This document shows positions 11,189-57,600 of a stretch of DNA of 64,000 nucleotides, one piece after another (position 1 is the first letter of the stretch; every line of letters begins with the position of its first letter). The translations under genes and the position numbers were made by a program. Origin of the DNA: Primulina eburnea (Eukaryota > Streptophyta > Magnoliopsida > Lamiales > Gesneriaceae); the NCBI RefSeq assembly GCF_022965805.1, contig NW_027331657.1, forward strand, positions 36,001 to 100,000, read 5' to 3'. The notes under the pieces were generated by a model. The model did not search any database. It saw nothing but the letters and a program-made list of their open reading frames with translations, and had not been told where the DNA came from.

Positions 11189-11220
<32 letters not shown>

Positions 11221-11228
11221 CATACATG

Positions 11229-11271
<43 letters not shown>

Positions 11272-12173
11272 GTGAAATCAAAGAGCGCACTTTTTCTTGA
11301 ACTTGGGGACCAAAATCATTTCCATTTTAGATGCTCGACCAAATTTATTATTGATTGATAAAAAATATAGCGAAATGCGTTTTTTAGATGATATGTTGTG
11401 TATTTCATTCTTTTTTAGAATTATTTTTTTGTAAACTGTGATTTGTCATTCCCATGATATTTATTTATATTTCTTGGTCTGAATTAGAAAGATGATTCCG
11501 TGCTTTTGCATCTTTCGGAAGATTTGCACTTCTTATAATCATATACTATTGTTAGAAAAAATATATTAATTCATAATGTTGTGAAGGTTGTGTTGTTATA
11601 ATTATATATGATTTTTTCGAAATGCAAAAACACCGTCGTAATTACATTACTGAATGGTTAAATCTTGTCGGTATATTTCTTTGTCACCCAACTATGACAT
11701 AGTGAAATGGCATTGTGTGCACGAGGAACTATCAGATTCGACGTAACGGTCGAATTTGTCAAAAGAAACCCAGACGCCTTAGAAGGGTAATTTATTTTGG
11801 TCCAGGGTTTAGCGTCCCGGCAACAGCGGACTCCATTGTGGAGCTTCAGAGCCTGGAGGAGCTAGCAACATGTGATCTGCGAAACCCCATCAGAATGTAT
11901 GCTGATGGATCGAACCACGTTACCCTGGATAAAGAGGGGACTAGATATTTCAGCAGCGGGAACCAGGAAAGCTGCAAGAACGGGATGAAGCTACCTGTGA
12001 CCGTGCAGAATCGTCACGATGAAGACGAGCCTTACCGCCCTGATCCGCCAGTGGAACCTTACCCTCATCCCCCGCCTACAACTCCGCATCCCTATCCCGC
12101 TGCAGGCACATCTTTGAATGTGTTTTTTTCCGTTGTGTTTGCTGGGCTGTTCCTTTCGTGTATTGGCATGTAG
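10975..12173 (+). CDS. early nodulin-like protein (phytocyanin family), GPI-anchored, two exons
   Basis: Exons are 10,975-11,155 and 11,806-12,173. The donor is GTAAGC and the acceptor TGGTCCAG; together they encode 182 residues. The start chosen is the ATG that opens a signal peptide (about residues 1-26), not the in-frame ATG at 10,906. A plastocyanin-like domain follows: VGGEEGW, then VGDKLW built across the splice site, then DSIVEL, ATCD, NPIRMY, and a second Cys in NQESCKNGMKL. The usual blue-copper ligands (His after the core strand, Cys and His before GMKL) are absent, as in early nodulin-like proteins. A Pro-rich linker (about residues 135-160) and a hydrophobic tail predict a GPI anchor and an apoplastic, plasma-membrane location. 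Such proteins are arabinogalactan-like and act in cell-wall or reproductive development. It converges on the TFIIF-alpha gene, about 360 bp away stop to stop. Confidence 0.85.
11183..11269. repeat. AT and AC microsatellites in the intron of the early nodulin-like gene
   Basis: A (TA)n run at about 11,183-11,210 is followed by (AC)n and then an (AT)n run at about 11,231-11,269. All lie near the 5' end of the 650-bp intron. Length is likely polymorphic. Confidence 0.9.
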
Positions 12174-12533: not shown

Positions 12534-12623
12534 TCAGCTTTCAAATTCTCTCTCTCGGAACCACGTGGGTGGCTCCATTAGTCTTTTGTATCTCCTTAAT
12601 ATAGCATAAAAAGCATCCTTACC
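12534..12623 (-). CDS. RAP74: TFIIF-alpha last exon (eroded)
   Basis: After the acceptor TTAATGCAG it reads GKDAFYAIL in frame. A nearby frame then reads IQKTNGATHVV, which matches the conserved end of the RAP74 winged-helix domain (KDAFAAIL, KIQKTNG, YVVL). The switch of frame after AIL shows that a few codons and a frame have been lost. The opened frame ends at a TGA at 12,534-12,536. Expected helix residues (ISK) between the two motifs are missing. Confidence 0.6.
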   Translation of the reverse strand, partial: GKDAFYAILRRYKRLMEPPTWFREREFES

Positions 12624-15600
12624 CTGCATTAAGATAGTTCATTTCAACCACGTACCACATGTAAATGGAATTAATTCTACCGCATTTCAAATGACAAAAT
12701 ATATAAAGAAATTTATACCTCTTTCAGCTTCAACCCAGGTTTTAAATTTGGCAATACGATCCTGCGTGGTCGCAGATTTTACTTCCTGAAACACTGTAAA
12801 CATTTAATCTTCAAAAAGGTAAAGCACTGGTCAGCTATTTAAAAAAGGAAAAAACAAAGCCATTAAAGATGTCTCTTAACAATTTACTTACATTTTCTGT
12901 TTTTACCTTCTTTAAAGGTGTACCGTTGGTTGTTCTTGATTCCTCCACGCCAATTTTTCTTTTTCCCTTTGAAGACTTTGACGTAGATGGGGTATCCCAT
13001 GACCAGATCCAGAAGTTGTTGCCTTTAGTGGCGCGCTGTTCTCAACTGGCTTTTCGTTTGGAGCTTCCTTCTTTGGTGCAAGTACAGGAGAAATATCATC
13101 TTCGGTCTAACAAACACAGAAAATTATACTCTCGTTCGCAACCTTGTAGAATAAGCTAGAATCTAGATACACCATGACAAATAAGACATCCAAGTGTTGA
13201 CTATAAACCCAATATATGGTCCGTTACCGAGCAAGAATTGAAGAAAGAAAATAATTGGTATGAATATCTAAACATAATTTAGGCATATAAACCTCTTTTG
13301 ATTAAGAAAATCAAAACACCTTTATGATAACCATGATATCTAACTATGATGGTCCACAAGGTCTGAATATTCCCAGCAATTAACCCCTGAGAAGGATTAC
13401 TAATTCCCAAAGATTGGGATAAAACTTACCTCATCGTCATCCTCTGCGTCTGAATCATCCAGCTCATTAGCTCGCCCCAGCAGTTTCTTCTGCTGTTTTC
13501 CAGATTTGCTCAGCCCCTCTCCTCTTCATCTTCGATCTAAACAAACACAGAAAAATTATAGTCTCGCTCGCAACCTTGTAGGGTAAGAGAGAATCTAGAT
13601 ACACCATTACAAATAAAACATCAAAGTGCTGACTAAAAACCCAATTTATGGTCCGTTGCCGAACAACAATTGAAGAAAGAAAATAATCGGTATGATATAA
13701 ACATAATTAAGGCATATAAACCTCTTTTGAGTAAGAAATCAATACAACTTTATGATAACCATGATATCTAACTATGATGGTCCACAAGGTCTGAATATTC
13801 ACAGCAATTAACCCCTGAGAAGGATTGCTAATTCCCAAGGATCGCGATAAAACTTACCTCATCGTCATCCTCTGCGTCTGAATCATCCAGCTCATTAGCT
13901 CGCCCCAGCAGTTTCTTCAGCTGTTTTCCAGATTTGCTCAGCCCCTCCTCCTCGTCTGAATCATCCAGCTCATTAGCTCGCCCCAGCAGTTTCTTCAGCT
14001 GTTTTCCAGATTTGCTCAGCCCCCCCTCCTCTTCATCTTCGATCTAACAAACACAGAAAAATTATAGTCTCGCTCGCAACCTTGTAGGGTAAGATAGAAT
14101 CTAGATACACCATGACAAATAAAACATCAAAGTGCTGACTAAAAACCCAATTTATGGTCCGTTGCCGAACAACAATTGAAGAAAGAAAATAATCGGTATG
14201 ATCTAAACATAATTAAGGCATATAAACCTCTTTTGAGTAAGAAATCAATACAACTTTATGATAACCATGATATCTAACTATGATGGTCCACAAGGTCTGA
14301 ATATTCACAGCAATTAACCCCTGAGAAGGATTGCTATTTCCCAAGGATCGCGATAAAACTTACCTCATCGTCATCCTCTGCGTCTGAATCATCCAGCTCA
14401 TTAGCTCGCCCCAGCAATTTCTTCAGCTGTTTTCCAGATTTGCTCAGCCCCCCCTCCTCGTCTGAATCATCCAGCTCATTAGCTCGCCCCAGCAGTTTCT
14501 TCAGCTGTTTTCCAGATTTGCTCCGCCCCCCCTCCTCTTCATCTTCGATCTAACAAACACAGAAAAATTATAGTCTCGCTCGCAACCTTGTAGGGTAAGA
14601 TAGAATCTAGATACACCATGACAAATAAAACATCAAAGTGCTGACTAAAACCCAATTTATGGTCCGTTGCTGAACAACAATTGAAGAAAAAAAATAATCG
14701 GTATGATCTAAACATAATTAAGGCATATAAACCTCTTTTGAGTAAGAAATCAATACAACTTTATGATAACCATGATATCTAACTATGAGGGTCCACAAGG
14801 TCTGAATATTCACAGCTAACCCCTGAGAAGGATTGCTAATTCCCAAGGATCGCGATAAAACTTACCTCATCGTCATCCTCTGCGTCTGAAACATCCAGCT
14901 CATTAGCTCACCCCAGCAGTTTCTTCAGCTGTTTTCCAGATTTGCTCAGCCCCCCCTCCTCGTCTGAATCATCCAGCTCATTAGCTCGCCCCAACAGTTT
15001 CTTGAGCTGTTTTCCAGATTTGCTCAGCCCCCCCTCCTCTTCATCTTCGATCTAACAAACACAGAAAAATTATAGTCTCGCTCGCAACCTTGTAGGGTAA
15101 GATAGAATCTAGATACACCATGACAAATAAAACATCAAAGTGCTGACTAAAAACCCAATTTATGGTCCGTTGCCGGACAACAATTGAAGAAAGAAAATAA
15201 TCGGTATGATCTAAACATAATTAAGGCATATAAACCTCTTTTGAGTAAGAAATCAATACAACTTTATGATAACCATGATATCTAACTATGATGGTCCACA
15301 AGGTCTGAATATTCACAGCTAACCCCTGAGAAGGATTGCTAATTCCCAAGGATCGCGATAAAACTTACCTCATCGTCATCCCCTGCGTCTGAATCATCCA
15401 GCTCATTAGCTCGCCCCAGCAGTTTCTTCAGCTGTTTTCCAGATTTGCTCAGCCCCCCCTCCTCGTCTGAATCATCCAGCTCATTAGCTCGCCCCAGCAG
15501 TTTCTTCAGCTGTTTTCCAGATTTGCTCGGCCCCCCCTCCTCTTCATCTTCGATCTAACAAACACAGAAAAATTATAGTCTCGCTCGCAACCTTGTAGGG

Positions 15601-18600
15601 TAAGATAGAATCTAGATACACCATGACAAATAAAACATCAAAGTGCTGACTAAAAAACCAATTTATGGTCCGTTGCCGAATAACAATTGAAGAAAGAAAA
15701 TAATCGGTATGATCTAAACATAATTAAGGCATATAAACCTCTTTTGAGTAAGAAATCAATACAACTTTATGATAACCATGATATCTAACTATGACGGTCC
15801 ACAAGGTCTGAATATTCACAGCAATTAACCCTGAGAAGGATTGCTAATTCCCAAGGATCGCGATAAAACTTACCTCATCATCATCCTCTGCGTCTGAATC
15901 ATCCAGCTCATTAGCTCGCCCCAGCAGTTTCTTCAGCTGTTTTGCAGATTTGCTCATCCCCCCCTCCTCGTCTGAATCATCCAGCTCATTAGCTCGCCCC
16001 AGCAGTTTCTTCAGCTGTTTTCCAGATTTGCTCAGCCCCCCTCCTCGTCTGAATTATCCAGCTCATTAGCTCGCCCCAGCAGTTTCTTCAGCTGTTTTCC
16101 AGATTTGCTCAGCCCCCCCCTCCTATTCATCTTCGATCTAACAAACACAGAAAAATTATAGTCTCGCTCGCAACCTTGTAGGGTAAGATAGAATCTAGAT
16201 ACACCATGACAAATAAAACATCAAAGTGCTGACTAAAAACCCAATTTATGGTCCGTTGCCGAACAACAATTGAAGAAAGAAAATAATCGGTATGATCTAA
16301 ACATAATTAAGGCATATAAACCCATTTTGAGTAAGAAATCAATACAACTTTATGATAACCATGATATCTAACTATGATGGTCCACAAGGTCTGAATAATC
16401 ACAGCAATTAACCCCTGAGAAGGATTGCTAATTCCCAAGGATCGCGATAAAACTTACCTCATCGTCATCCTCTGCGTCTGAATCATCCAGCTCATTAGCT
16501 CGCCCCAGCAGTTTCTTCAGCTGTTTTCTAGATTTGCTCAGCCCCCCCTCCTCGTCTGAATCATCCAGCTCATTAGCTCGCCCCAGCAGTTTCTTGAGCT
16601 GTTTTCCAGATTTGCTCAGCCCCCCCTCCTCTTCATCTTCGATCTAACAAACACAGAAAAATTATAGTCTCGCTCGCAACCTTGTAGGGTAAGATAGAAT
16701 CTAGATACACCATGACAAATAAAACATCAAAGTGCTGACTAAAAACCCAATTTATGGTCCGTTGCCGGACAACAATTGAAGAAAGAAAATAATCGGTATG
16801 ATCTAAACATAATTAAGGCATATAAACCTCTTTTGAGTAAGAAATCAATACAACTTTATGATAACCATGATATCTAACTATGATGGTCCACAAGGTCTGA
16901 ATATTCACAGCTAACCCCTGAGAAGGATTGCTAATTCCCAAAGATCGGGATAAAACTTACCTCATCGTCATCCCCTGCGTCTGAATCATCCAGCTCATTA
17001 GCTCGCCCCAGCAGTTTCTTCAGCTGTTTTTCAGATTTGCTCAGCCCCCCTCCTCGTCTGAATCATCCAGCTCATTAGCTCGCCCCAGCAGTTTCTTCAG
17101 CTGTTTTCCAGATTTGCTCGGCCCCCCCCTCCTCTTCATCTTCGATCTAACAAAAACAGAAAAATTATAGTCTCGCTCGCAACCTTGTAGGGTAAGATAG
17201 AATCTAGATACACCATGACAAATAAAACATCAAAGTGCTGACTAAAAACCCAATTTATGGTCCGTTGCCGAACAACAATTGAAGAAAGAAAATAATCGGT
17301 ATGATCTAAACATAATTAAGGCATATAAACCTCTTTTGAGTAAGAAATCAATACAACTTTATGATAACCATGATATTTAACTATGATGGTCCACAAGGTC
17401 TGAATATTCACAGCTAACCCCTGAGAAGGATTGCTAATTCCCAAGGATCGCGATAAAACTTACCTCATCGTCATCCTCTGCGTCTGAATCATCCAGCTCA
17501 TTAGCTCGCCCCAGCAGTTTCTTCAGCTGTTTTCCAGATTTGCTCAGCCCCTCCTCCTCGTCTGAATCATCCAGCTCATTAGCTCGCCCCAGCAATTTCT
17601 TCAGCTGTTTTCCAGATTTGCTCAGCCCCCCCTCCTCTTCATCTTCGATCTAACAAACACAGAAAAATTATAGTCTCGCTCGCAACCTTGTAGGGTAAGA
17701 TAGAATCTAGATACACCATGACAAATAAAACATCAAAGTGCTGACTAAAAACCCAATTTATGATCCGTTGCCGAACAACAATTGAAGAAAGAAAATAATC
17801 GGTATGATCTAAACATAATTAAGGCATATAAACCTCTTTTGAGTAAGAAATCAATACAACTTTATGATAACCATGATATCTAACTATGATGGTCCACAAG
17901 GTCTGAATATTCACAGCAATTAACCCCTGAGAAGGATTGCTATTTCCCAAGGATCGCGATAAAACTTACCTCATCGTCATCCTCTGCGTCTGAATCATCC
18001 AGCTCATTAGCTCGCCCCAGCAGTTTCTTCAGCTGTTTTCCAGATTTGCTCAGCCCCCCCTCCTCGTCTGAATCATCCAGCTCATTAGCTCGCCCCAGCA
18101 GTTTCTTGAGCTGTTTTCCAGATTTGCTCAGCCCCCCTCCTCTTCATCTTCGATCTAACAAATACAGAAAAATTATAGTCTCGCTCGCAACCTTGTAGGG
18201 TAAGATAGAATCTAGATACACCATGACAAATAAAACATCAAAGTGCTGACTAAAAACCCAATTTATGGTCCGTTGCCGGACAACAATTGAAGAAAGAAAA
18301 TAATCGGTATGATCTAAACATAATTAAGGCATATAAACCTCTTTTGAGTAAGAAATCAATACAACTTTATGATAACCATGATATCTAACTATGATGGTCC
18401 ACAAGGTCTGAATATTCACAGCTAACCCCTGAGAAGGATTGCTAATTCCCAAGGATCGCGATAAAACTTACCTCATCGTCATCCCCTGCGTCTGAATCAT
18501 CCAGCTCATTAGCTCGCCCCAGCAGTTTCTTCAGCTGTTTTCCAGATTTGCTCAGCCCCCCTCCTCGTCTGAATCATCCAGCTCATTAGCTCGCCCCAGC

Positions 18601-33600: not shown

Positions 33601-36600
33601 CTCGCTCGCAACCTTGTAGGGTAAGATAGAATCTAGATACACCATGACAAATAAAACATCAAAGTGCTGACTAAAAACCCAATTTATGGTCCGTTGCCGA
33701 ACAACAATTGAAGAAAGAAAATAATCGGTATGATCTAAACATAATTAAGGCATATAAACCCATTTTGAGTAAGAAATCAATACAACTTTATGATAACCAT
33801 GATATCTAACTATGATGGTCCACAAGGTCTGAATATTCACAGCAATTAACCCCTGAGAAGGATTGCTAATTCCCAAGGATCGCGATAAAACTTACCACAT
33901 CGTCATCCTCTGCGTTTGAATCATCCAGCTCATTAGCTCGCCCCAGCAGTTTCTTCAGCTGTTTTGCAGATTTGCTCAGCCCCCCCTCCTCTTCATCTTC
34001 GATCTAACAAACACAGAAAAATTATAGTCTCGCTCGCAACCTTGTAGGGTAAGATAGAATCTAGATACACCATGACAAATAAAACATCAAAGTGCTGACT
34101 AAAAACCCAATTTATGGTCCGTTGCCGAACAACAATTGAAGAAAGAAAATAATCGGTATGATCTGAACATAATTAAGACATATAAACCTCTTTTGAGTAA
34201 GAAATCAATACAACTTTATGATAACCATGATATCTAACTATGATGGTCCACAAGGTCTGAATATTCACAGCAATTAACCCCTGAGAAGGATTGCAACTTC
34301 CCAAGGATTGCGATAAAACTTACCTCATCGTCATCCTCTGCGTCTGAATCATCCAGCTCATTAGCTCGCCCCAGCAGTTTCTTCAGCTGTTTTCCAGATT
34401 TGCTCAGCCCCCCCTCCTCGTCTGAATCATCCAGCTCATTAGCTCGCCCCAGCAGTTTCTTCAGCTGTTTTCCAAATTTGCTCAGCCCCCCCTCCTCTTC
34501 ATCTTCGATCTAACAAACACAGAAAAATTATAGTCTCGCTCGCAACCTTGTAGGGTAAGATAGAATCTAGATACACCATGACAAATAAAACATCAAAGTG
34601 CTGACTAAAAACCCAATTTATGGTCCGTTGCCGAACAACAATTGAAGAAAGAAAATAATCTGTATGATCTAAACATAATTAAGACATATAAACCCATTTT
34701 GAGTAAGAAATCAATACAACTTTATGATAACCATGATATCTAACTATGATGGTCCACAAGGTCTGAATATTCACAGCAATTAACCCCTGAGAAGGATTGC
34801 TAATTCCCAAGGATTGCGATAAAACTTACCTCATCGTCATCCTCTGCGTCTGAATCATCCAGCTCATTAGCTCGCCCCAGCAGTTTCTTCAGCTGTTTTC
34901 CAGATTTGCTCAGCCCCCCCTCCTATTCATCTTCGATCTAACAAACACAGAAAAATTATAGTCTCGCTCGCAACCTTGTAGGGTAAGATAGAATCTAGAT
35001 ACACCATGACAAATAAAACATCAAAGTGCTGACTAAAAACCCAATTTATGGTCCGTTGCTGAACAACAATTGAAGAAAGAAAATAATCGGTATGATCTAA
35101 ACATAATTAAGGCATATAAACCTCTTTTGTGGAAGAAATCAATACAACTTTATGATAACCATGATATCTAACTATGAGGGTCCACAAGATCTGAATATTC
35201 ACAGCTAACCCCTGAGAAAGATTGCTAATTCCCAAGGATCGCGATAAAACTTACCTCATCGTCATCCTCTGCGTCTGAATCATCCAGCTCATTAGCTCGC
35301 CCCAGCAGTTTCTTCAGCTGTTTTCCAGATTTGCTCAGCCCCCCCTCCTCGTCTGAATCATCCAGCTCATTAGCTCGCCCCAGTAGTTTCTTGAGCTGTT
35401 TTCCAGATTTGCTCAGCCCCCCCTCCTCTTCATCTTCGATCTAACAAACACAGAAAAATTATAGTCTCGCTCGCAACCTTGTAGGGTAAGATAGAATCTA
35501 GATACACCATGACAAATAAAACATCAAAGTGCTGACTAAAAACCCAATTTATGGTCCGTTGCCGGACAACAATTGAAGAAAGAAAATAATCGGTATGATC
35601 TAAACATAATTAAGGCATATAAACCTCTTTTGAGTAAGAAATCAATACAACTTTATGATAACCATGATATCTAACTATGATGGTCCACAAGGTCTGAATA
35701 TTCACAGCTAACCCCTGAGAAGGATTGCTAATTCCCAAGGATCGCGATAAAACTTACCTCATCTTCATCCCCTGCGTCTGAATCATCCAGCTCATTAGCT
35801 CGCCCCAGCAGTTTCTTCAGCTGTTTTCCAGATTTGCTCAGCCCCCCTCCTCGTCTGAATCATCCAGCTCATTAGCTCGCCCCAGCAGTTTCTTCAGCTG
35901 TTTTCCAGATTTGCTCGGCCCCCCCTCCTCTTCATCTTCGATCTAACAAACACAGAAAAATTATAGTCTCGCTCGCAACCTTGTAGGGTAAGATAGAATC
36001 TAGATACACCATGACAAATAAAACATCAAAGTGCTGACTAAAAACCCAATTTATGGTCCGTTGCCGAATAACAATTGAAGAAAGAAAATAATCGGTATGA
36101 TCTAAACATAATTAAGGCATATAAACCTCTTTTGAGTAAGAAATCAATACAACTTTATGATAACCATGATATCTAACTATGACGGTCCACAAGGTCTGAA
36201 TATTCACAGCTAACCCCTGAGAAGGATTGCTAATTCCCAAGGATCGCGATAAAACTTACCTCATCGTCATCCTCTGCGTCTGAATCATCCAGCTCATTAG
36301 CTCGCCCCAGCAGTTTCTTCAGCTGTTTTGCAGATTTGCTCAGCCCCCCCTCCTCGTCTGAATCATCCAGCTCATTAGCTCGCCCCAGCAGTTTCTTCAG
36401 CTGTTTTCCAGATTTGCTCAGCCCCCCCTCCTCGTCTGAATTATCCAGCTCATTAGCTCGGCCCAGCAGTTTCTTCAGCTGTTTTCCAGATTTGCTCAGC
36501 CCCCCCCTCCTATTCATCTTCGATCTAACAAACACAGAAAAATTATAGTCTCGCTCGCAACCTTGTAGGGTAAGATAGAATCTAGATACACCATGACAAA

Positions 36601-39600
36601 TAAAACATCAAAGTGCTGACTAAAAACCCAATTTATGGTCCGTTGCCGAACAACAATTGAAGAAAGAAAATAATCGGTATGATCTAAACATAATTAAGGC
36701 ATATAAACCCATTTTGAGTAAGAAATCAATACAACTTTATGATAACCATGATATCTAACTATGATGGTCCACAAGGTCTGAATATTCACAGCAATTAACC
36801 CCTGAGAAGGATTGCTAATTCCCAAGGATCGCGATAAAACTTACCTCATCGTCATCCTCTGCGTTTGAATCATCCAGCTCATTAGCTCGCCCCAGCAGTT
36901 TCTTCAGCTGTTTTGCAGATTTGCTCAGCCCCCCCTCCTCTTCATCTTCGATCTAACAAACACAGAAAAATTATAGTCTCGCTCGCAACCTTGTAGGGTA
37001 AGATAGAATCTAGATACACCATGACAAATAAAACATCAAAGTGCTGACTAAAAACCCAATTTATGGTCCGTTGCCGAACAACAATTGAAGAAAGAAAATA
37101 ATCGGTATGATCTGAACATAATTAAGACATATAAACCTCTTTTGAGTAAGAAATCAATACAACTTTATGATAACCATGATATCTAACTATGATGGTCCAC
37201 AAGGTCTGAATATTCACAGCAATTAACCCCTGAGAAGGATTGCAACTTCCCAAGGATTGCGATAAAACTTACCTCATCGTCATCCTCTGCGTCTAAATCA
37301 TCCAGCTCATTAGCTCGCCCCAGCAGTTTCTTCAGCTGTTTTCCAGATTTGCTAAGCCCCCCCTCCTCGTCTGAATCATCCAGCTCATTAGCTCGCCCCA
37401 GCAGTTTCTTCAGCTGTTTTCCAAATTTGCTCAGCCCCCCCTCCTCTTCATCTTCGATCTAACAAACACAGAAAAATTATAGTCTCGCTCGCAACCTTGT
37501 AGGGTAAGATAGAATCTAGATACACCATGACAAATAAAACATCAAAGTGCTGACTAAAAACCCAATTTATGGTCCGTTGCCGAACAACAATTGAAGAAAG
37601 AAAATAATCGGTATGATCTAAACATAATTAAGACATATAAACCCATTTTGAGTAAGAAATCAATACAACTTTATGATAACCATGATATCTAACTATGATG
37701 GTCCACAAGGTCTGAATATTCACAGCAATTAACCCCTGAGAAGGATTGCTAATTCCCAAGGATTGCGATAAAACTTACCTCATCGTCATCCTCTGCGTCT
37801 GAATCATCCAGCTCATTAGCTCGCCCCAGCAGTTTCTTCAGCTGTTTTCCAGATTTGCTCAGCCCCCCCTCCTATTCATCTTCGATCTAACAAACACAGA
37901 AAAATTATAGTCTCGCTCGCAACCTTGTAGGGTAAGATAGAATCTAGATACACCATGACAAATAAAACATCAAAGTGCTGACTAAAACCCAATTTATGGT
38001 CCGTTGCCGGACAACAATTGAAGAAAGAAAATAATCGGTATGATCTAAACATAATTAAGGCATATAAACCTCTTTTGAGGAAGAAATCAATACAACTTTA
38101 TGATAACCATGATATCTAACTATGAGGGTCCACAAGGTCTGAATATTCACAGCTAACCCCTGAGAAGGATTGCTAATTCCCAAGGATCGCGATAAAACTT
38201 ACCTCATCGTCATCCTCTGCGTCTGAATCATCCAGCTCATTAGCTCGCCCCAGCAGTTTCTTCAGCTGTTTTCCAGATTTGCTCAGCCCCCCCTCCTCGT
38301 CTGAATCATCCAGCTCATTAGCTCGCCCCAGTAGTTTCTTGAGCTGTTTTCCAGATTTGCTCAGCCCCCCCTCCTCTTCATCTTCGATCTAACAAACACA
38401 GAAAAATTATAGTCTCGCTCGCAACCTTGTAGGGTAAGATAGAATCTAGATACACCATGACAAATAAAACATCAAAGTGCTGACTAAAAACCCAATTTAT
38501 GGTCCGTTGCCGGACAACAATTGAAGAAAGAAAATAATCGGTATGATCTAAACATAATTAAGGCATATAAACCTCTTTTGAGTAAGAAATCAATACAACT
38601 TTATGATAACCATGATATCTAACTATGAGGGTCCACAAGGTCTGAATATTCACAGCTAACCCCTGAGAAGGATTGCTAATTCCCAAGGATCGCGATAAAA
38701 CTTACCTCATCTTCATCCCCTGCGTCTGAATCATCCAGCTCATTAGCTCGCCCCAGCAGTTTCTTCAGCTGTTTTCCAGATTTGCTCAGCCCCCCTCCTC
38801 GTCTGAATCATCCAGCTCATTAGCTCGCCCCAGCAGTTTCTTCAACTGTTTTCCAGATTTGCTCAGCCCCCCCTCCTCTTCATCTTCGATCTAACAAACA
38901 CAGAAAAATTATAGTCTCGCTCGCAACCTTGTAGGGTAAGATAGAATCTAGATACACCATGACAAATAAAACATCAAAGTGCTGACTAAAAACCCAATTT
39001 ATGGTCCGTTGCCGGACAACAATTGAAGAAAGAAAATAATCGGTATGATCTAAACATAATTAAGGCATATAAACCTCTTTTGAGTAAGAAATCAATACAA
39101 CTTTATGATAACCATGATATCTAACTATGATGGTCCACAAGGTCTGAATATTCACAGCTAACCCCTGAGAAGGATTGCTAATTCCCAAGGATCGCGATAA
39201 AACTTACCTCATCGTCATCCCCTGCGTCTGAATCATCCAGCTCATTAGCTCGCCCCAGCAGTTTCTTCAGCTGTTTTCCAGATTTGCTCAGCCCCCCTCC
39301 TCGTCTGAATCATCCAGCTCATTAGCTCGCCCCAGCAGTTTCTTCAGCTGTTTTCCAGATTTGCTCGGCCCCCCCTCCTCTTCATCTTCGATCTAACAAA
39401 CACAGAAAAATTATAGTCTCGCTCGCAACCTTGTAGGGTAAGATAGAATCTAGATACACCATGACAAATAAAACATCAAAGTGCTGACTAAAAACCCAAT
39501 TTATGGTCCGTTGCCGAATAACAATTGAAGAAAGAAAATAATCGGTATGATCTAAACATAATTAAGGCATATAAACCTCTTTTGAGTAAGAAATCAATAC

Positions 39601-42600
39601 AACTTTATGATAACCATGATATCTAACTATGACGGTCCACAAGGTCTGAATATTCACAGCTAACCCCTGAGAAGGATTGCTAATTCCCAAGGATCGCGAT
39701 AAAACTTACCTCATCGTCATCCTCTGCGTCTGAATCATCCAGCTCATTAGCTCGCCCCAGCAGTTTCTTCAGCTGTTTTGCAGATTTGCTCAGCCCCCCC
39801 TCCTCGTCTGAATCATCCAGCTCATTAGCTCGCCCCAGCAGTTTCTTCAGCTGTTTTCCAGATTTGCTCAGCCCCCCCTCCTCGTCTGAATTATCCAGCT
39901 CATTAGCTCGGCCCAGCAGTTTCTTCAGCTGTTTTCCAGATTTGCTCAGCCCCCCCTCCTATTCATCTTCGATCTAACAAACACAGAAAAATTATAGTCT
40001 CGCTCGCAACCTTGTAGGGTAAGATAGAATCTAGATACACCATGACAAATAAAACATCAAAGTGCTGACTAAAAACCCAATTTATGGTCCGTTGCCGAAC
40101 AACAATTGAAGAAAGAAAATAATCGGTATGATCTAAACATAATTAAGGCATATAAACCCATTTTGAGTAAGAAATCAATACAACTTTATGATAACCATGA
40201 TATCTAACTATGATGGTCCACAAGGTCTGAATATTCACAGCAATTAACCCCTGAGAAGGATTGCTAATTCCCAAGGATCGCGATAAAACTTACCTCATCG
40301 TCATCCTCTGCGTTTGAATCATCCAGCTCATTAGCTCGCCCCAGCAGTTTCTTCAGCTGTTTTCCAGATTTGCTCAGCCCCCCCTCCTCTTCATCTTCGA
40401 TCTAACAAACACAGAAAAATTATAGTCTCGCTCGCAACCTTGTAGGGTAAGATAGAATCTAGATACACCATGACAAATAAAACATCAAAGTGCTGACTAA
40501 AAACCCAATTTATGGTCCGTTGCCGGACAACAATTGAAGAAAGAAAATAATCGGTATGATCTAAACATAATTAAGGCATATAAACCTCTTTTGAGTAAGA
40601 AATCAATACAACTTTATGATAACCATGATATCTAACTATGATGGTCCACAAGGTCTGAATATTCACAGCTAACCCCTGAGAAGGATTGCTAATTCCCAAG
40701 GATCGCGATAAAACTTACCTCATCGTCATCCCCTGCGTCTGAATCATCCAGCTCATTAGCTCGCCCCAGCAGTTTCTTCAGCTGTTTTCCAGATTTGCTC
40801 AGCCCCCCCTCCTCGTCTGAATCATCCAGCTCATTAGCTCGCCCCAGCAGTTTCTTCAGCTGTTTTCCAGATTTGCTCGGCCCCCCCTCCTCTTCATCTT
40901 CGATCTAACAAACACAGAAAAATTATAGTCTCGCTCGCAACCTTGTAGGGTAAGATAGAATCTAGATACACCATGACAAATAAAACATCAAAGTGCTGAC
41001 TAAAAACCCAATTTATGGTCCGTTGCCGAATAACAATTGAAGAAAGAAAATAATCGGTATGATCTAAACATAATTAAGGCATATAAACCTCTTTTGAGTA
41101 AGAAATCAATACAACTTTATGATAACCATGATATCTAACTATGACGGTCCACAAGGTCTGAATATTCACAGCAATTAACCCTGAGAAGGATTGCTAATTC
41201 CCAAGGATCGCGATAAAACTTACCTCATCGTCTCCTCTGCGTCTGAATCATCCAGCACACTAGCTCGCCCCAGCAGTTTCTTCAGCTGTTTTGCAGATTT
41301 GCTCAGCCCCCCCTCCTCGTCTGAATCATCCAGCTCATTAGCTCGCCCCAGCAGTTTCTTCAGCTGTTTTCCAGATTTGCTCAGCCCCCCCTCCTCGTCT
41401 GAATTATCCAGCTCATTAGCTCGCCCCAGCAGTTTCTTCAGCTGTTTTCCAGATTTGCTCAGCCCCCCCTCCTATTCATCTTCGATCTAACAAACACAGA
41501 AAAATTATAGTCTCGCTCGCAACCTTGTAGGGTAAGATAGAATCTAGATACACCATGACAAATAAAACATCAAAGTGCTGACTAAAAACCCAATTTATGG
41601 TCCGTTGCCGAACAACAATTGAAGAAAGAAAATAATCGGTATGATCTAAACATAATTAAGGCATATAAACCCATTTTGAGTAAGAAATCAATACAACTTT
41701 ATGATAACCATGATATCTAACTATGATGGTCCACAAGGTCTGAATATTCACAGCAATTAACCCCTGAGAAGGATTGCTAATTCCCAAGGATCGCGATAAA
41801 ACTTACCTCATCGTCATCCTCTGCGTTTGAATCATCCAGCTCATTAGCTCGCCCCAGCAGTTTCTTCAGCTGTTTTGCAGATTTGCTCAGCCCCCCCTCC
41901 TCTTCATCTTCGATCTAACAAACACAGAAAAATTATAGTCTCGCTCGCAACCTTGTAGGGTAAGATAGAATCTAGATACACCATGACAAATAAAACATCA
42001 AAGTGCTGACTAAAAACCCAATTTATGGTCCGTTGCCGAACAACAATTGAAGAAAGAAAATAATCGGTATGATCTGAACATAATTAAGACATATAAACCT
42101 CTTTTGAGTAAGAAATCAATACAACTTTATGATAACCATGATATCTAACTATGATGGTCCACAAGGTCTGAATATTCACAGCAATTAACCCCTGAGAAGG
42201 ATTGCAACTTCCCAAGGATTGCGATAAAACTTACCTCATCGTCATCCTCTGCGTCTAAATCATCCAGCTCATTAGCTCGCCCCAGCAGTTTCTTCAGCTG
42301 TTTTCCAGATTTGCTCAGCCCCCCCTCCTCGTCTGAATCATCCAGCTCATTAGCTCGCCCCAGCAGTTTCTTCAGCTGTTTTCCAAATTTGCTCAGCCCC
42401 CCCTCCTCTTCATCTTCGATCTAACAAACACAGAAAAATTATAGTCTCGCTCGCAACCTTGTAGGGTAAGATAGAATCTAGATACACCATGACAAATAAA
42501 ACATCAAAGTGCTGACTAAAAACCCAATTTATGGTCCGTTGCCGAACAACAATTGAAGAAAGAAAATAATCGGTATGATCTAAACATAATTAAGACATAT

Positions 42601-45600
42601 AAACCCATTTTGAGTAAGAAATCAATACAACTTTATGATAACCATGATATCTAACTATGATGGTCCACAAGGTCTGAATATTCACAGCAATTAACCCCTG
42701 AGAAGGATTGCTAATTCCCAAGGATTGCGATAAAACTTACCTCATCGTCATCCTCTGCGTCTGAATCATCCAGCTCATTAGCTCGCCCCAGCAGTTTCTT
42801 CAGCTGTTTTCCAGATTTGCTCAGCCCCCCCTCCTATTCATCTTCGATCTAACAAACACAGAAAAATTATAGTCTCGCTCGCAACCTTGTAGGGTAAGAT
42901 AGAATCTAGATACACCATGACAAATAAAACATCAAAGTGCTGACTAAAAACCCAATTTATGGTCCGTTGCTGAACAACAATTGAAGAAAGAAAATAATCG
43001 GTATGATCTAAACATAATTAAGGCATATAAACCTCTTTTGAGGAAGAAATCAATACAACTTTATGATAACCATGATATCTAACTATGAGGGTCCACAAGA
43101 TCTGAATATTCACAGCTAACCCCTGAGAAAGATTGCTAATTCCCAAGGATCGCGATAAAACTTACCTCATCGTCATCCTCTGCGTCTGAATCATCCAGCT
43201 CATTAGCTCGCCCCAGCAGTTTCTTCAGCTGTTTTCCAGATTTGCTCAGCCCCCCCTCCTCGTCTGAATCATCCAGCTCATTAGCTCGCCCCAGTAGTTT
43301 CTTGAGCTGTTTTCCAGATTTGCTCAGCCCCCCCTCCTCTTCATCTTCGATCTAACAAACACAGAAAAATTATAGTCTCGCTCGCAACCTTGTAGGGTAA
43401 GATAGAATCTAGATACACCATGACAAATAAAACATCAAAGTGCTGACTAAAAACCCAATTTATGGTCCGTTGCCGGACAACAATTGAAGAAAGAAAATAA
43501 TCGGTATGATCTAAACATAATTAAGGCATATAAACCTCTTTTGAGTAAGAAATCAATACAACTTTATGATAACCATGATATCTAACTATGATGGTCCACA
43601 AGGTCTGAATATTCACAGCTAACCCCTGAGAAGGATTGCTAATTCCCAAGGATCGCGATAAAACTTACCTCATCTTCATCCCCTGCGTCTGAATCATCCA
43701 GCTCATTAGCTCGCCCCAGCAGTTTCTTCAGCTGTTTTCCAGATTTGCTCAGCCCCCCTCCTCGTCTGAATCATCCAGCTCATTAGCTCGCCCCAGCAGT
43801 TTCTTCAGCTGTTTTCCAGATTTGCTCGGCCCCCCCTCCTCTTCATCTTCGATCTAACAAACACAGAAAAATTATAGTCTCGCTCGCAACCTTGTAGGGT
43901 AAGATAGAATCTAGATACACCATGACAAATAAAACATCAAAGTGCTGACTAAAAACCCAATTTATGGTCCGTTGCCGAATAACAATTGAAGAAAGAAAAT
44001 AATCGGTATGATCTAAACATAATTAAGGCATATAAACCTCTTTTGAGTAAGAAATCAATACAACTTTATGATAACCATGATATCTAACTATGACGGTCCA
44101 CAAGGTCTGAATATTCACAGCTAACCCCTGAGAAGGATTGCTAATTCCCAAGGATCGCGATAAAACTTACCTCATCGTCATCCTCTGCGTCTGAATCATC
44201 CAGCTCATTAGCTCGCCCCAGCAGTTTCTTCAGCTGTTTTGCAGATTTGCTCAGCCCCCCCTCCTCGTCTGAATCATCCAGCTCATTAGCTCGCCCCAGC
44301 AGTTTCTTCAGCTGTTTTCCAGATTTGCTCAGCCCCCCCTCCTCGTCTGAATTATCCAGCTCATTAGCTCGGCCCAGCAGTTTCTTCAGCTGTTTTCCAG
44401 ATTTGCTCAGCCACCCCTCCTATTCATCTTCGATCTAACAAACACAGAAAAATTATAGTCTCGCTCGCAACCTTGTAGGGTAAGATAGAATCTAGATACA
44501 CCATGACAAATAAAACATCAAAGTGCTGACTAAAAACCCAATTTATGGTCCGTTGCCGAACAACAATTGAAGAAAGAAAATAATCGGTATGATCTAAACA
44601 TAATTAAGGCATATAAACCCATTTTGAGTAAGAAATCAATACAACTTTATGATAACCATGATATCTAACTATGATGGTCCACAAGGTCTGAATATTCACA
44701 GCAATTAACCCCTGAGAAGGATTGCTAATTCCCAAGGATCGCGATAAAACTTACCTCATCGTCATCCTCTGCGTTTGAATCATCCAGCTCATTAGCTCGC
44801 CCCAGCAGTTTCTTCAGCTGTTTTGCAGATTTGCTCAGCCCCCCCTCCTCTTCATCTTCGATCTAACAAACACAGAAAAATTATAGTCTCGCTCGCAACC
44901 TTGTAGGGTAAGATAGAATCTAGATACACCATGACAAATAAAACATCAAAGTGCTGACTAAAAACCCAATTTATGGTCCGTTGCCGAACAACAATTGAAG
45001 AAAGAAAATAATCGGTATGATCTGAACATAATTAAGACATATAAACCTCTTTTGAGTAAGAAATCAATACAACTTTATGATAACCATGATATCTAACTAT
45101 GATGGTCCACAAGGTCTGAATATTCACAGCAATTAACCCCTGAGAAGGATTGCAACTTCCCAAGGATTGCGATAAAACTTACCTCATCGTCATCCTCTGC
45201 GTCTAAATCATCCAGCTCATTAGCTCGCCCCAGCAGTTTCTTCAGCTGTTTTCCAGATTTGCTCAGCCCCCCCCTCCTCGTCTGAATCATCCAGCTCATT
45301 AGCTCGCCCCAGCAGTTTCTTCAGCTGTTTTCCAAATTTGCTCAGCCCCCCCTCCTCTTCATCTTCGATCTAACAAACACAGAAAAATTATAGTCTCGCT
45401 CGCAACCTTGTAGGGTAAGATAGAATCTAGATACACCATGACAAATAAAACATCAAAGTGCTGACTAAAAACCCAATTTATGGTCCGTTGCCGAACAACA
45501 ATTGAAGAAAGAAAATAATCGGTATGATCTAAACATAATTAAGACATATAAACCCATTTTGAGTAAGAAATCAATACAACTTTATGATAACCATGATATC

Positions 45601-48600
45601 TAACTATGATGGTCCACAAGGTCTGAATATTCACAGCAATTAACCCCTGAGAAGGATTGCTAATTCCCAAGGATTGCGATAAAACTTACCTCATCGTCAT
45701 CCTCTGCGTCTGAATCATCCAGCTCATTAGCTCGCCCCAGCAGTTTCTTCAGCTGTTTTCCAGATTTGCTCAGCCCCCCCTCCTATTCATCTTCGATCTA
45801 ACAAACACAGAAAAATTATAGTCTCGCTCGCAACCTTGTAGGGTAAGATAGAATCTAGATACACCATGACAAATAAAACATCAAAGTGCTGACTAAAACC
45901 CAATTTATGGTCCGTTGCCGGACAACAATTGAAGAAAGAAAATAATCGGTATGATCTAAACATAATTAAGGCATATAAACCTCTTTTGAGGAAGAAATCA
46001 ATACAACTTTATGATAACCATGATATCTAACTATGAGGGTCCACAAGGTCTGAATATTCACAGCTAACCCTTGAGAAGGATTGCTAATTCCCAAGGATCG
46101 CGATAAAACTTACCTCATCGTCATCCTCTGCGTCTGAATCATCCAGCTCATTAGCTCGCCCCAGCAGTTTCTTCAGCTGTTTTCCAGATTTGCTCAGCCC
46201 CCCCTCCTCGTCTGAATCATCCAGCTCATTAGCTCGCCCCAGCAGTTTCTTGAGCTGTTTTCCAGATTTGCTCAGCCCCCCCTCCTCTTAATCTTCGATC
46301 TAACAAACACAGAAAAATTATAGTCTCGCTCGCAACCTTGTAGGGTAAGATAGAATCTAGATACACCATGACAAATAAAACATCAAAGTGCTGACTAAAA
46401 CCCAATTTATGGTCCGTTGCTGAACAACAATTGAAGAAAGAAAATAATCGGTATGATCTAAACATAATTAAGGCATATAAACCTCTTTTGAGGAAGAAAT
46501 CAATACAACTTTATGATAACCATGATATCTAACTATGAGGGTCCACAAGGTCTGAATATTCACAGCTAACCCCTGAGAAGGATTGCTAATTCCCAAGGAT
46601 CGCGATAAAACTTACCTCATCGTCATCCTCTGCGTCTGAATCATCCAGCTCATTAGCTCGCCCCAGCAGTTTCTTCAGCTGTTTTCCAGATTTGCTCAGC
46701 CCCCCCTCCTCGTCTGAATCATCCAGCTCATTAGCTCGCCCCAGCAGTTTCTTGAGCTGTTTTCCAGATTTGCTCAGCCCCCCCTCCTCTTCATCTTCGA
46801 TCTAACAAACACAGAAAAATTATAGTCTCGCTCGCAACCTTGTAGGGTAAGATAGAATCTAGATACACCATGACAAATAAAACATCAAAGTGCTGACTAA
46901 AAACCCAATTTATGGTCCGTTGCCGGACAACAATTGAAGAAAGAAAATAATCGGTATGATCTAAACATAATTAAGGCATATAAACCTCTTTTGAGTAAGA
47001 AATCAATACAACTTTATGATAACCATGATATCTAACTATGATGGTCCACAAGGTCTGAATATTCACAGCTAACCCCTGAGAAGGATTGCTAATTCCCAAG
47101 GATCGCGATAAAACTTACCTCATCGTCATCCCCTGCGTCTGAATCATCCAGCTCATTAGCTCGCCCCAGCAGTTTCTTCAGCTGTTTTCCAGATTTGCTC
47201 AGCCCCCCCTCCTCGTCTGAATCATCCAGCTCATTAGCTCGCCCCAGCAGTTTCTTCAGCTGTTTTCCAGATTTGCTCGGCCCCCCCTCCTCTTCATCTT
47301 CGATCTAACAAACACAGAAAAATTATAGTCTCGCTCGCAACCTTGTAGGGTAAGATAGAATCTAGATACACCATGACAAATAAAACATCAAAGTGCTGAC
47401 TAAAAACCCAATTTATGGTCCGTTGCCGAATAACAATTGAAGAAAGAAAATAATCGGTATGATCTAAACATAATTAAGGCATATAAACCTCTTTTGAGTA
47501 AGAAATCAATACAACTTTATGATAACCATGATATCTAACTATGACGGTCCACAAGGTCTGAATATTCACAGCAATTAACCCTGAGAAGGATTGCTAATTC
47601 CCAAGGATCGCGATAAAACTTACCTCATCGTCTCCTCTGCGTCTGAATCATCCAGCACACTAGCTCGCCCCAGCAGTTTCTTCAGCTGTTTTGCAGATTT
47701 GCTCAGCCCCCCCTCCTCGTCTGAATCATCCAGCTCATTAGCTCGCCCCAGCAGTTTCTTCAGCTGTTTTCCAGATTTGCTCAGCCCCCCCTCCTCGTCT
47801 GAATTATCCAGCTCATTAGCTCGCCCCAGCAGTTTCTTCAGCTGTTTTCCAGATTTGCTCAGCCCCCCCTCCTATTCATCTTCGATCTAACAAACACAGA
47901 AAAATTATAGTCTCGCTCGCAACCTTGTAGGGTAAGATAGAATCTAGATACACCATGACAAATAAAACATCAAAGTGCTGACTAAAAACCCAATTTATGG
48001 TCCGTTGCCGAACAACAATTGAAGAAAGAAAATAATCGGTATGATCTAAACATAATTAAGGCATATAAACCCATTTTGAGTAAGAAATCAATACAACTTT
48101 ATGATAACCATGATATCTAACTATGATGGTCCACAAGGTCTGAATATTCACAGCAATTAACCCCCGAGAAGGATTGCTAATTCCCAAGGATCGCGATAAA
48201 ACTTACCTCATCGTCATCCTCTGCGTTTGAATCATCCAGCTCATTAGCTCGCCCCAGCAGTTTCTTCAGCTGTTTTGCAGATTTGCTCAGCCCCCCCTCC
48301 TCTTCATCTTCGATCTAACAAACACAGAAAAATTATAGTCTCGCTCGCAACCTTGTAGGGTAAGATAGAATCTAGATACACCATGACAAATAAAACATCA
48401 AAGTGCTGACTAAAAACCCAATTTATGGTCCGTTGCCGAACAACAATTGAAGAAAGAAAATAATCGGTATGATCTGAACATAATTAAGACATATAAACCT
48501 CTTTTGAGTAAGAAATCAATACAACTTTATGATAACCATGATATCTAACTATGATGGTCCACAAGGTCTGAATATTCACAGCAATTAACCCCTGAGAAGG

Positions 48601-51600: not shown

Positions 51601-54600
51601 TGAATATTCACAGCAATTAACCCCTGAGAAGGATCGCTACTTCCCAAGGATTGCGATAAAACTTACCTCATCGTCATCCTCTGCGTCTGAATCATCCAGC
51701 TCATTAGCTTGCCCCAGCAGTTTCTTCAGCTGTTTTACAGATTTGCTCAGCCCCCCCTCCTCGTCTGAATCATCCAGCTCATTAGCTCGCCCCAGCAGTT
51801 TCTTCAGCTGTTTTCCAAATTTGCTCAGCCCCCCCTCCTCTTCATCTTCGATCTAACAAACACAGAAAAATTATAGTCTCGCTCGCAACCTTGTAGGGTA
51901 AGATAGAATCTAGATACACCATGACAAATAAAACATCAAAGTGCTGACTAAAAACCCAATTTATGGTCCGTTGCCGAACAACAATTGAAGAAAGAAAATA
52001 ATCGGTATGATCTAAACATAATTAAGGCATATAAACCTATTTTGAGTAAGAAATCAATACAACTTTATGATAACCATGATATCTAACTATGATGGTCCAC
52101 AAGGTCTGAATATTCACAGCAATTAACCCCTGAGAAGGATTGCTAATTCCCAAGGATTGCGATAAAACTTACCTCATCGTCATCCTCTGCGTCTGAATCA
52201 TCCAGCTCATTAGCTCGCCCCAGCAGTTTCTTCAGCTGTTTTCCAGATTAGCTCAGCCCCCCCTCCTCGTCTGAATCATCCAGCTCATTAGCTCGCCCCA
52301 GCAGTTTCTTCAGCTGTTTTCCAGATTTGCTCAGCCCCCCCTCCTCTTCATCTTCGATCTAACAAACACAGAAAAATTATAGTCTCGCTCGCAACCTTGT
52401 AGGGTAAGATAGAATCTAGATACACCATGACAAATAAAACATCAAAGTGCTGACTAAAAACCCAATTTATGGTCCGTTGCCGAACAACAATTCAAGAAAG
52501 AAAATAATCGGTATGATCTAAACATAATTAAGGCATATAAACCCATTTTGAGTAAGAAATCAATACAACTTTATGATAACCATGATATCTAACTATGATG
52601 GTCCACAAGGTCTGAATATTCACAGCAATTAACCCCTGAGAAGGATTGCTAATTCCCAAGGATTGCGATAAAACTTACCTCATCGTCATCCTCTGCGTCT
52701 GAATCATCCAGCTCATTAGCTCGCCCCAGCAGTTTCTTCAGCTGTTTTCCAGATTTGCTCAGCCCCCCCTCCTCTTCATCTTCGATCTAACAAACACAGA
52801 AAAATTATAGTCTCGCTCGCAACCTTGTAGGGTAAGATAGAATCTAGATACACCATGACAAATAAAACATCAAAGTGCTGACTAAAAACCCAATTTATGG
52901 TCCGTTGCCGGACAACAATTGAAGAAAGAAAATAATCGGTATGATCTAAACATAATTAAGGCATATAAACCTCTTTTGAGTAAAAATCAATACAACTTTA
53001 TGATAACCATGATATCTAACTATGATGGTCCACAAGGTCTGAATATTCACAGCAATTAACCCCTGAGAAGGATTGCTAATTCCCAAGGATCGCGATAAAA
53101 CTTACCTCATCGTCATCCTCTGCGTCTGAATCATCCAGCTCATTAGCTCGCCCCAGCAGTTTCTTCAGTTGTTTTCCATATTTTCTCAGCCCCCCCTCCT
53201 CGTCTGAATCATCCAGCTCATTAGCTCGCCCTAGCAGTTTCTTCAGCTGTTTTCCAGATTTGCTCAGCCACCCCTCCTCGTCTGAATCATCCAGCTCATT
53301 AGCTCGCCCCAGCAGTTTATTCAGCTGTTTTCCAGATTTGCTCAGCCCCCCCTCCTCTTCATCTTCGATCTAACAAACACAGAAAAATTATAGTCTCGCT
53401 CGCAACCTTGTAGGGTAAGATAGAATATAGATACATCATGACAAATAAAACATCAAAGTGCTGACTAAACACCCAATTTATGGTCCGTTGCCGAACAACA
53501 ATTGAAGAAAGAAAATAATCGGTATGATCTAAACATAATTAAGGCATATAAACCTCTTTTGAGTAAGAAATCAATACAACTTTAAGATAACCATGATATC
53601 TAACTATGATGGTCCACAAGGTCTGAATATTCACAGCAATTAACCCCTGAGAAGGATTGCTACTTCCCAAGGATTGCGATAAAACTTACCTCATCGTCAT
53701 CCTCTGCGTCTGAATCATCCAGCTCATTAGCTCGCCCCAGCAGTTTCTTCAGCTGTTTTCCAGATTTGCTCAGCCCCCCCTCCTCGTCTGAATCATCCAG
53801 ATCATGAGCTCGTCCCAGCAGTTTCTTCAGCTGTTTTCCAGATTTGCTCAGCCCCCCCTCCTCTTCATCTTCGATCTAACAAACACAGAAAAATTATAGT
53901 CTCGCTCGCAACCTAGTAGGGTAAGATAGAATCTAGATACACCATGACAAATAAAACATCAAAGTGCGGACTAAAAACCCAATTTATGGTCCGTTGCCGA
54001 ACAACAATTGAAGAAAGAAAATAATCGGTATGATCTAAACATAATTAAGGCATATAAACCTCTTTTGAGTAAAAATCAATACAACTTTATGATAACCATG
54101 ATATCTAACTATGATGGTCCACAAGGTCTGAATATTCACAGCAATTAACCCCTGAGAAGGATTGCTAATTCCCAAGGATCGCGATAAAACTTACCTCATC
54201 GTCATCCTCTGCGTCTGAATCATCCAACTCATTAGCTCGCCCCAGCAGTTTCTTCAGTTGTTTTCCATATTTTCTCAGCCCCCCCTCCTCGTCTGAATCA
54301 TCCAGCTCATTAGCTCGCCCCAGCAGTTTCTTCAGCTGTTTTCCAGATTTGCTCAGCCACCCCTCCTCGTCTGAATCATCCAGCTCATTAGCTCGCCCCA
54401 GCAGTTTATTCAGCTGTTTTCCAGATTTGCTCAGCCCCCCCTCCTCTTCATCTTCGATCTAACAAACACAGAAAAATTATAGTCTCGCTCGCAACCTTGT
54501 AGGGTAAGATAGAATATAGATACACCATGACAAATAAAACATCAAAGTGCTGACTAAACACCCAATTTATGGTCCGTTGCCGAACAACAATTGAAGAAAG

Positions 54601-57600
54601 AAAATAATCGGTATGATCTAAACATAATTAAGGCATATAAACCTCTTTTGAGTAAGAAATCAATACAACTTTAAGATAACCATGATATCTAACTATGATG
54701 GTCCACAAGGTCTGAATATTCACAGCAATTAACCCCTGAGAAGGATTGCTACTTCCCAAGGATTGCGATAAAACTTACCTCATCGTCATCCTCTGCGTCT
54801 GAATCATCCAGCTCATTAGCTCGCCCCAGCAGTTTCTTCAGCTGTTTTCCAGATTTGCTCAGCCCCCCCTCCTCGTCTGAATCATCCAGATCATGAGCTC
54901 GTCCCAGCAGTTTCTTCAGCTGTTTTCCAGATTTGCTCAGCCCCCCCTCCTCTTCATCTTCGATCTAACAAACACAGAAAAATTATAGTCTCGCTCGCAA
55001 CCTTGTAGGGTAAGATAGAATCTAGATACACCATGACAAATAAAACATCAAAGTGCGGACTAAAAACCCAATTTATGGGCCGTTGCCGAACAACAATTGA
55101 AGAAAGAAAATAATCGGTATGATCTAAACATAATTAAGGCATATAAACCCATTTTGAGTAAGAAATCAATACAACTTTATGATAACCATGATATCTAACT
55201 ATGATGGTCCACAAGGTCTGAATATTCACAGCAATTAACCCCTGAGAAGGATTGCTAATTCCCAAGGATTGCGATAAAACTTACCTCATCGTCATCCTCT
55301 GCGTCTGAATCATCCAGCTCATTAGCTCGCCCCAGCAGTTTCTTCAGCTGTTTTCCAGATTTGCTCAGCCCCCCCTCCTCGTCTGAATCATCCAGCTCAT
55401 TAGCTCGCCCCAGCAGTTTCTTCAGCTGTTTTCCAGATTTGCTCAGCCCCCCATCCTCTTCATCTTCGATCTAACAAACACAGAAAAATTATAGTCTCGC
55501 TCGCAACCTTGTAGGGTAAGATAGAATCTAGATACACCATGACAAATAAAACATCAAAGTGCGGACTAAAAACCCAATTTATGGTCCGTTGCCGAACAAC
55601 AATTGAAGAAAGAAAATAATCGGTATGATCTAAACATAATTAAGGCATATAAACCTCTTTTGAGTAAGAAATCAATACAACTTTATGATAACCATGATAT
55701 CTAACTATGATGGTCCACAAGGTCTGAATATTCACAGCAATTAACCCCTGAGAAGGATTGCTAATTCCCAAGGATTGCGATAAAACTTACCTCATCGTCA
55801 TCCTCTGCGTCTGAATCATGCAGCTAATTAGCTCGCCCAAGCAGTTTCTTCAGCTGTTTTCCAGATTTGCTCAGCCCCCCCTCCTCGTCTGAATCATCCA
55901 GTTTCTTCAGCTGTTTTCCAGATTTGCTCAGCCCCCCCTCCTATTCATCTTCGATCTAACAAACACAGAAAAATTATAGTCTCGCTCGCAACCTTGTAGG
56001 GTAAGATAGAATCTAGATACACCATGACAAATAAAACATCAAAGTGCTGACTAAAAACCCAATTTATGGTCCGTTGCCGAACAACAATTGAAGAAAGAAA
56101 ATAATTGGTATGATCTAAACATAATTAAGGCATATAAACCTCTTTTGAGTAAGAAATCAATACACCTTTATGATAACCATGATATCTAACTATGATGCTC
56201 CACAAGGTCTGAATATTCACCGCAATTAACCCCTGAAAATGATTGCTAATTCCCAAAGATTGACTTACCTCAGCGTCATCTTCTGCGTCTGAATCATCCA
56301 CCCCATTAGCTCGCCCCAGCAGTTTCTTCAGCTCTTTTCCAGATTTGCTCAGCCCCCCCTCCTCTTCATCAGCCTCATCCTCATCCTCATCATCCTAGAT
56401 ATACATATTAATTTCAAACGGTTTTAGAATAACCATCAGCAAATAAGAACTTATTCAACATGGCAGGAAAAATGCAAAGAACACCTGCTTAATTTCTGGA
56501 GGAGCTGGCATTTCAAGCGCCAGATCTAAGCGTTCCTCTGGATCATTGCCAACTGCTTCATCATCATCCATAAAAATTTCTTCGTGCTCCCAATCGTCGC
56601 CTGGAGAAGATGGAAAAACCCTTTAAAATATAAATGGAATTTTCCCTATGAAATCCATATGGAATAGTCATATAAAAAAATTCAGGGTGCAGAAGAGATG
56701 TAGATGATATAAAATGGCAAGTTAAACATTGATAGTTTGAGGAAAACAAACACAACAAATAAGTAAAAAAAGGTCATCATCGGTCCTTCTCTCAAAAGAT
56801 CATATGCCATCAAATACCTGTGCAATGAAACATGTAGTGGACATTGAAAAGAAATAGAGGAAAACAAATTGCGTCAGGTGACAGACAAATGACATTAAAT
56901 ATTATAATCCTAACCATAAACTACTGCGGAAAAAAATGATTCTCTTACCACATATTTACACTATATTTGTTACTACATAAAACCCACACAGATGCCTTAC
57001 TCGCATGAAACTTTTAGCAGTTGCAAAGAAAATTTAAACAATTAGTTCACACCCTTTTCAATATCGTCATCGTCAAAGTCCAGGTCACCTCCTCTAGGAC
57101 CTTCATCATCATCATCCCCATTTTTTTGTTAACTCCTAGTCTACTTTTTCTTGCTGCCTCATCTTCCTCATCCTCCTCTCCCCGGTCCGAGGCATTGCCC
57201 TCATGATCATCACCTGGGGTTATTTTATGCCCTCTCACACCACCAGAGCCACTTTCTCGATCATCAACCTTTGCAACTTCACCAAATGCAGCAGGTCCAT
57301 TGTTTGCTGCTTTCATCATCCATCTTTCGTAACCATCGGCAGTTTTCCTTCTATTTTTCATCTTTTCTTCTGCTTCCTCCAAAGCGAGTTGCTTATATTG
57401 TACCACTTTGTTAAAACTGTACCAAGAAACAGAGAAAACGCACAAGGTAAATACAAAGAATGCAGAAAAAACGCTGAACTATTACTGCATAGTACCATGA
57501 ACGAGCAGGAATGGCAAGAAAGTACTTCCCCTGAAGCATCAGAAGGTTATATGTTGCTGACTGCCTCAAGGTGACCATGATATTGAGACTGGCTTGTTTC

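Follow-up and report, generated by a model that had tools for sequence, protein, structure and literature searches.

A satellite-like array of 85 exon-intron units inside a RAP74 gene copy of Primulina eburnea

A paralogue of the gene for the general transcription factor TFIIF-alpha (RAP74) in Primulina eburnea carries, between two of its exons, a tandem array of 85 exon-intron units. The reading that we prefer (probability about 0.7) is a satellite born from a gene, in which a complete exon-intron unit was amplified and homogenised, and not a giant protein. The analysed window is a stretch of 64,000 nucleotides (positions 36001-100000 of contig C1126) from an assembly of 812 Mb in 1,224 contigs.

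Structure of the array and its support in the assembly

Repeat and splice-site mapping placed the array at 13107..56268, where the 85 units, with 86 introns, are bounded by exon A (exon 6 of RAP74; 56269..56396) on the upstream side and by exon B (exon 7; 12892..13106) on the downstream side. All of them are on the minus strand, the orientation of the gene itself. The array is confirmed as present in the sequence, chance not being at issue, and the mapping agrees with the sequence-only reading, which had described, at 13430-56268, about 85 copies of a TFIIF-alpha exon with its intron, in tandem within the gene and in its orientation. Exon A is the original exon with one copy of the motif counted below, and it has single counterpart exons at the RAP74 loci on two other contigs, C14 and C15. 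Most array exons are 186 (39 exons), 185 (13), 108 (12), 264 (seven) or 263 nt long (five), and the rarer lengths are 107, 184 and 187 nt (two exons each) and 265, 262 and 165 nt (one each); in many cases, a difference of 1-2 nt between exons is due to a single G-run of variable length. The introns are 313-323 nt long. Donor and acceptor sites had been reported as preserved in nearly every copy, and in fact all 86 introns start with GTAAGT and end with AG. When up to 9 edits were allowed, 169 cores of a 78-bp (26-codon) motif were counted in the 85 array exons, which contain one (15 exons), two (56) or three copies (14), and one more core was counted in exon A. The donor-to-donor spacings are mainly 502-506, 428 (seven times) and 580-586 bp. 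Among the 17 loci compared, full-length units were found only at the loci on C1126 and on the chromosome-size contig C8.

Using exon size class plus 22 intron columns to define a unit type, we found 34 types among 86 exons, and these types recur in order. A higher-order repeat, defined by unit types and exon coordinates, extends over 33896..45797 on the minus strand: a run of nine units at 33896-37886 recurs by unit type at 41807-45797, and within each of the two a stretch of units is repeated at a distance of six units (2,949 and 2,948 bp). On average, the intron at one edge of the array differs from the rest by 7.9% and that at the other edge by 3.3%, and inner introns differ by 1.1-2.6%. 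This homogenised middle with divergent edges looks like a satellite under unequal exchange and, together with the higher-order structure, bears out the earlier description of the array as satellite-like.

The only contig spanning the array, C1126, is unplaced and exactly 100,000 bp long. C8 has the same 5' part of RAP74, followed by four array exons, of which the fourth is incomplete, and matches the window at 54321-59330 with 99.74% identity. It then breaks inside the array at a gap of 100 N (C8:8655892-8655991), beyond which its DNA matches the left flank of the window only in repeats. Since C8 carries the 5' edge, the array is not an oddity of one contig, and its full length still depends on C1126. 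Over about 7 kb, C8 and C1126 show 18 differences, namely 11 substitutions and seven one-base indels, one of these indels being at the very end of the compared stretch. Those indels that fall in homopolymers seem to be consensus errors. Ten of the 11 substitutions are at or below 56509 and one is in the remaining 4.8 kb; this pile-up at the end of the array may be due to read mixing or gene conversion, and the two contigs may represent alleles or one locus assembled twice.

We consider it unlikely that the copy number is wrong because the assembler lengthened or rearranged an array that is really shorter. The reliance on one unplaced contig of round length, the equally round lengths of two other small contigs examined (100,000 and 125,000 bp), the break of C8 inside the array and the clustered substitutions would fit such an error, whereas the 34 unit types in recurring order, the divergent edges and the agreement of C8 and C1126 on the array edge at 99.7% speak against it. 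Moreover, every string of 2,000 bases is unique within the array, so that accurate long reads can be placed in it. The two other round contigs, C1223 and C1224, are unplaced like C1126, and all three look like pieces cut during scaffolding. The eight contigs examined among the first 18 of the assembly are 29.6-65.8 Mb long and C19 is 11 kb, which suggests 18 chromosomes.

The host gene and its relatives

The gene was identified as TFIIF-alpha (RAP74) by matches to Pfam PF05793 at 57119-57427 (E = 2.7e-28) and 56485-56610 (E = 1.6e-5) of the window and by its exon-by-exon likeness to plant RAP74. On the minus strand, exons 1, 2 and 3 are at 58657-58827, 58082-58233 and 57496-57636, exon 4 runs from about 57416, and exon 5 is at about 56485-56601; on the other side of the array, the remains of exons 8 and 9 (the winged-helix end) are at 12547..12780. 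Exons 7 and 9 are collinear with C14 and C15, as is a neighbour gene with two open exons on the plus strand (10975..12173), which we take to be phytocyanin-like and which has collinear pieces beside RAP74 on both contigs. A chimeric join of unrelated DNA was ruled out, since the 5' exons of RAP74, the remains of exons 7-9 and the neighbour are matched in the same order on C14 and C15. At the contig end (63455-63981), a 36-bp sequence is repeated about 15 times as a minisatellite.

A shift of -1 at the donor of exon 2 and a loss of 5 bp in exon 3 are present in both C1126 and C8. These two shifts cancel each other, and exons 1-4 are open except for about 25 scrambled residues. The acceptor AG of exon 4 is lost, and another AG is found 6 nt on. 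The lesions on the 3' side, namely a +2 shift leading to a stop in exon 7, a large internal deletion in exon 8 and a 10-bp deletion in exon 9, come from one contig only, and the one-base differences at 57120 and 56353 each make a frame lesion in only one of C8 and C1126. The introns are kept between the exon remains and the neighbour gene is collinear, as would be the case for an unprocessed pseudogene.

A profile search in which the best candidates were scored gave PF05793 matches on C14, C15, C8, C1126 and, as a fragment, C5. The host of the array is a third RAP74 copy beside the loci on C14 and C15. The intact protein P0006 of Henckelia pumila was the sister of the C8-type copy (support 100) in a tree built from 21 sequences, but the branch of the C8-type copy is about 7.6 times longer (0.106 versus 0.014). 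At 19 columns this copy has a residue that none of the other 19 sequences has, and 11 of these columns are otherwise invariant; Henckelia has two private residues. Henckelia was also the first match in a search with the C8-type protein (90%), and no closer protein was found among the best 120 of 533 matches. Over 297 codons, dN and dS between the host copy and the C14 gene are 0.088 and 0.83, and those between the host copy and the C15 gene are 0.080 and 0.72, so that the host copy looks constrained over its history as a whole. The genes on C14 and C15 differ from each other at a dS of 0.17; they could stem from an event involving H. pumila and P. huaijiensis, and the C8 copy from an older one (dS 0.72-0.83). 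For the C14 gene, the closest protein is one of Primulina huaijiensis (96%); the C15 gene clusters with P. huaijiensis and P. tabacum proteins. A small fragment near position 7111462 of C5 resembles exon 4 of RAP74 and adjacent sequence, being 81-90% similar to the copy in the window.

A check for a second intact RAP74 locus had been proposed. Two further loci exist, on C14 and C15, and each shows one apparent frame lesion, in exon 8 of the C14 gene and in exon 1 of the C15 gene. These frameshifts are absent from the P. huaijiensis proteins P0002 and P0001 and are either assembly errors or changes in the species, and lesions of 1-2 bases in the host copy should therefore be treated with care because some may be assembly errors. 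For the host copy, the lesions in exons 2, 3, 7, 8 and 9 and the long branch point to a pseudogene, whereas the low dN/dS, the cancelling shifts and the lesions in the other copies point the other way. A long-dead pseudogene was ruled out by the low dN/dS over the whole history, according to which any decay is at most recent. We conclude that the host gene has probably undergone a recent loss of constraint and become a pseudogene, a status that is not proven. The view that the basal transcription factor itself is affected found no support, given that the array sits in a third copy, which has a long branch and shows lesions beyond the array, and that two other RAP74 loci exist.

Coding potential of the array

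As written, 45 of the 85 array exons are open, 26 are out of frame and 14 more have stops. Most of the frame losses are located in a G-run, and setting every G-run to 7 raised the number of exons that keep the frame from 59 to 81; 65 exons were then open and 20 had stops, four of these also being out of frame. In 15 of the 85 exons, the fifth codon is TAG. Counted from the 5' side, the first array exon (55791..55955, minus strand) contains one in-frame TAG in both C1126 and C8 and a second TAG in the window only. These stops and frame losses do not sustain the proposal that the protein gains about 170 copies of the motif.

We looked for a coding signature in the variation of the array, comparing motif with introns and codon positions with each other, and found none. 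Diversity is 0.025 in the motif versus 0.017 in the introns (0.015 in the inner ones), as compared without a significance test and among array copies that are not independent, and it is 0.023, 0.031 and 0.022 at codon positions 1, 2 and 3, likewise without a significance test, being highest at position 2. On the stops, the frame losses and this absence of a coding signature, we rejected the giant-protein reading. The preserved splice sites had also been taken as a sign of use; among the 84 inner introns, 266 of 320 columns are invariant, and random sets of columns of the size of the splice sites were also invariant in 46% (2+2) or 17% (6+3) of draws. Splice-site conservation is therefore no better than the background, and we rejected it as evidence of use. 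Note that a 920-amino acid array query, scored against the 7,981 candidates sharing most words among eligible proteins of about 506-1610 residues, found 97 proteins, none of which covered more than 14% of the query, and no protein relative with the array was found among them.

It seems very unlikely, on this evidence, that the array is a working coding array from which some exons are spliced in to give RAP74 variants in which the charged motif GGLSKSGKQLKKLLGRANELDDSDEE is present several times. The intact GTAAGT...AG ends, the open exons (as written and with the G-runs set to 7) and the possibility of reading exons 1-4 as open would suit it, but the TAG that C8 and C1126 share in the first array exon, the TAG at the fifth codon of 15 exons, the higher diversity of the motif than of the introns, the shift and stop in the downstream exon 7 and the poor coverage of the array query by known proteins do not. 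Even less likely is a regulatory RNA locus, in which array transcripts feed small RNAs acting on the remaining RAP74 genes. Satellites often make siRNA; the array and the C15 gene region have ten 21-mers and seven 24-mers exactly in common, and the C14 region has 51 21-mers that differ from the array at 1-2 positions. This likeness is nevertheless expected from common descent, and the array and the C14 region have no exact 21-mer in common. A broader scenario, which we regard as quite unlikely, is that the array is partly transcribed and spliced, which would mean about 85 introns gained in one burst, a variable exon number, and RAP74 variants or small RNAs tuning the two remaining RAP74 genes.

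Origin of the unit and comparison with known systems

The preferred reading, a satellite born from a gene, would be explained as follows. The starting sequence is ATCGAAGATGAAGAGGAG in the array exons and ACCGAAGATGATATT in exon B, and exon A contains GGCTGATGAAGAGGAG; the array exons and exon B share the acceptor CTGTGTTTGTTAG as well as their first bases, and GATGA is common to the two breakpoint sites, in exon A and just inside exon B. The founding step was probably a tandem duplication in the RAP74 paralogue with its breakpoints at these GATGA sites, where a crossover would have fused the acceptor and the first 11 nt of exon B to the 3' part and donor of exon A, yielding a chimeric exon. 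Its product would have been a complete exon plus intron of 428 bp, and the smallest common class of units indeed consists of a 108-nt exon and a 320-nt intron (428 bp). Because 108 nt is a whole number of codons, each added unit would have kept the frame at birth. Unequal exchange would then have multiplied this unit, duplications of the 78-bp stretch inside the exon would have given one, two or three copies, and later exchanges of multi-unit blocks would have produced the higher-order repeats. In this lineage, the host gene, whose Henckelia counterpart is intact, would have lost constraint, and we propose that growth or persistence of the array was possible because the gene had ceased to matter.

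If this is correct, a satellite has been caught close to its birth, with its source exon and intron, its junction, the size of its first unit, the 78-bp duplications and the higher-order blocks still readable at one locus, and in a paralogue whose intact relative is known. The array also cautions against taking arrays with intact splice sites in assemblies to be coding; splicing of any of its exons would make it a large natural experiment on how the spliceosome handles tens of near-identical exons.

From titles and the openings of abstracts, we recognised no array of the same kind in the literature, which is not proof of absence. The closest known kinds are the kringle IV type 2 (KIV-2) repeat of human LPA and intron gain by tandem duplication. 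LPA KIV-2 has a 5.6-kb unit with two exons in 1 to more than 40 copies per allele (PMC6314250). Like the RAP74 array, it is an intragenic tandem array of exon-intron units. The LPA units are translated, whereas the RAP74 array consists of 85 units of about 0.5 kb in higher-order blocks, with many stops and in an apparently decaying host; in place of the open frame of a coding intragenic VNTR of the KIV-2 kind, 45 of 85 exons are open, or 65 with the G-runs at 7, and the first is stopped. In intron gain, tandem duplication across an exon-intron border creates a new intron that inherits its splice signals (PMC4974935). The GATGA junction and the GT-AG ends of all 86 introns resemble this process, but there one new intron was detected as an intron, and here a whole intron was copied 85 times, with predicted splice sites. 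With satellite DNA having higher-order repeats, finally, the RAP74 array shares the long homogenised core, the divergent edges and the recurring multi-unit runs, and it differs in being small (43 kb), in being found at one locus so far and in having its source exon and founding junction still readable.
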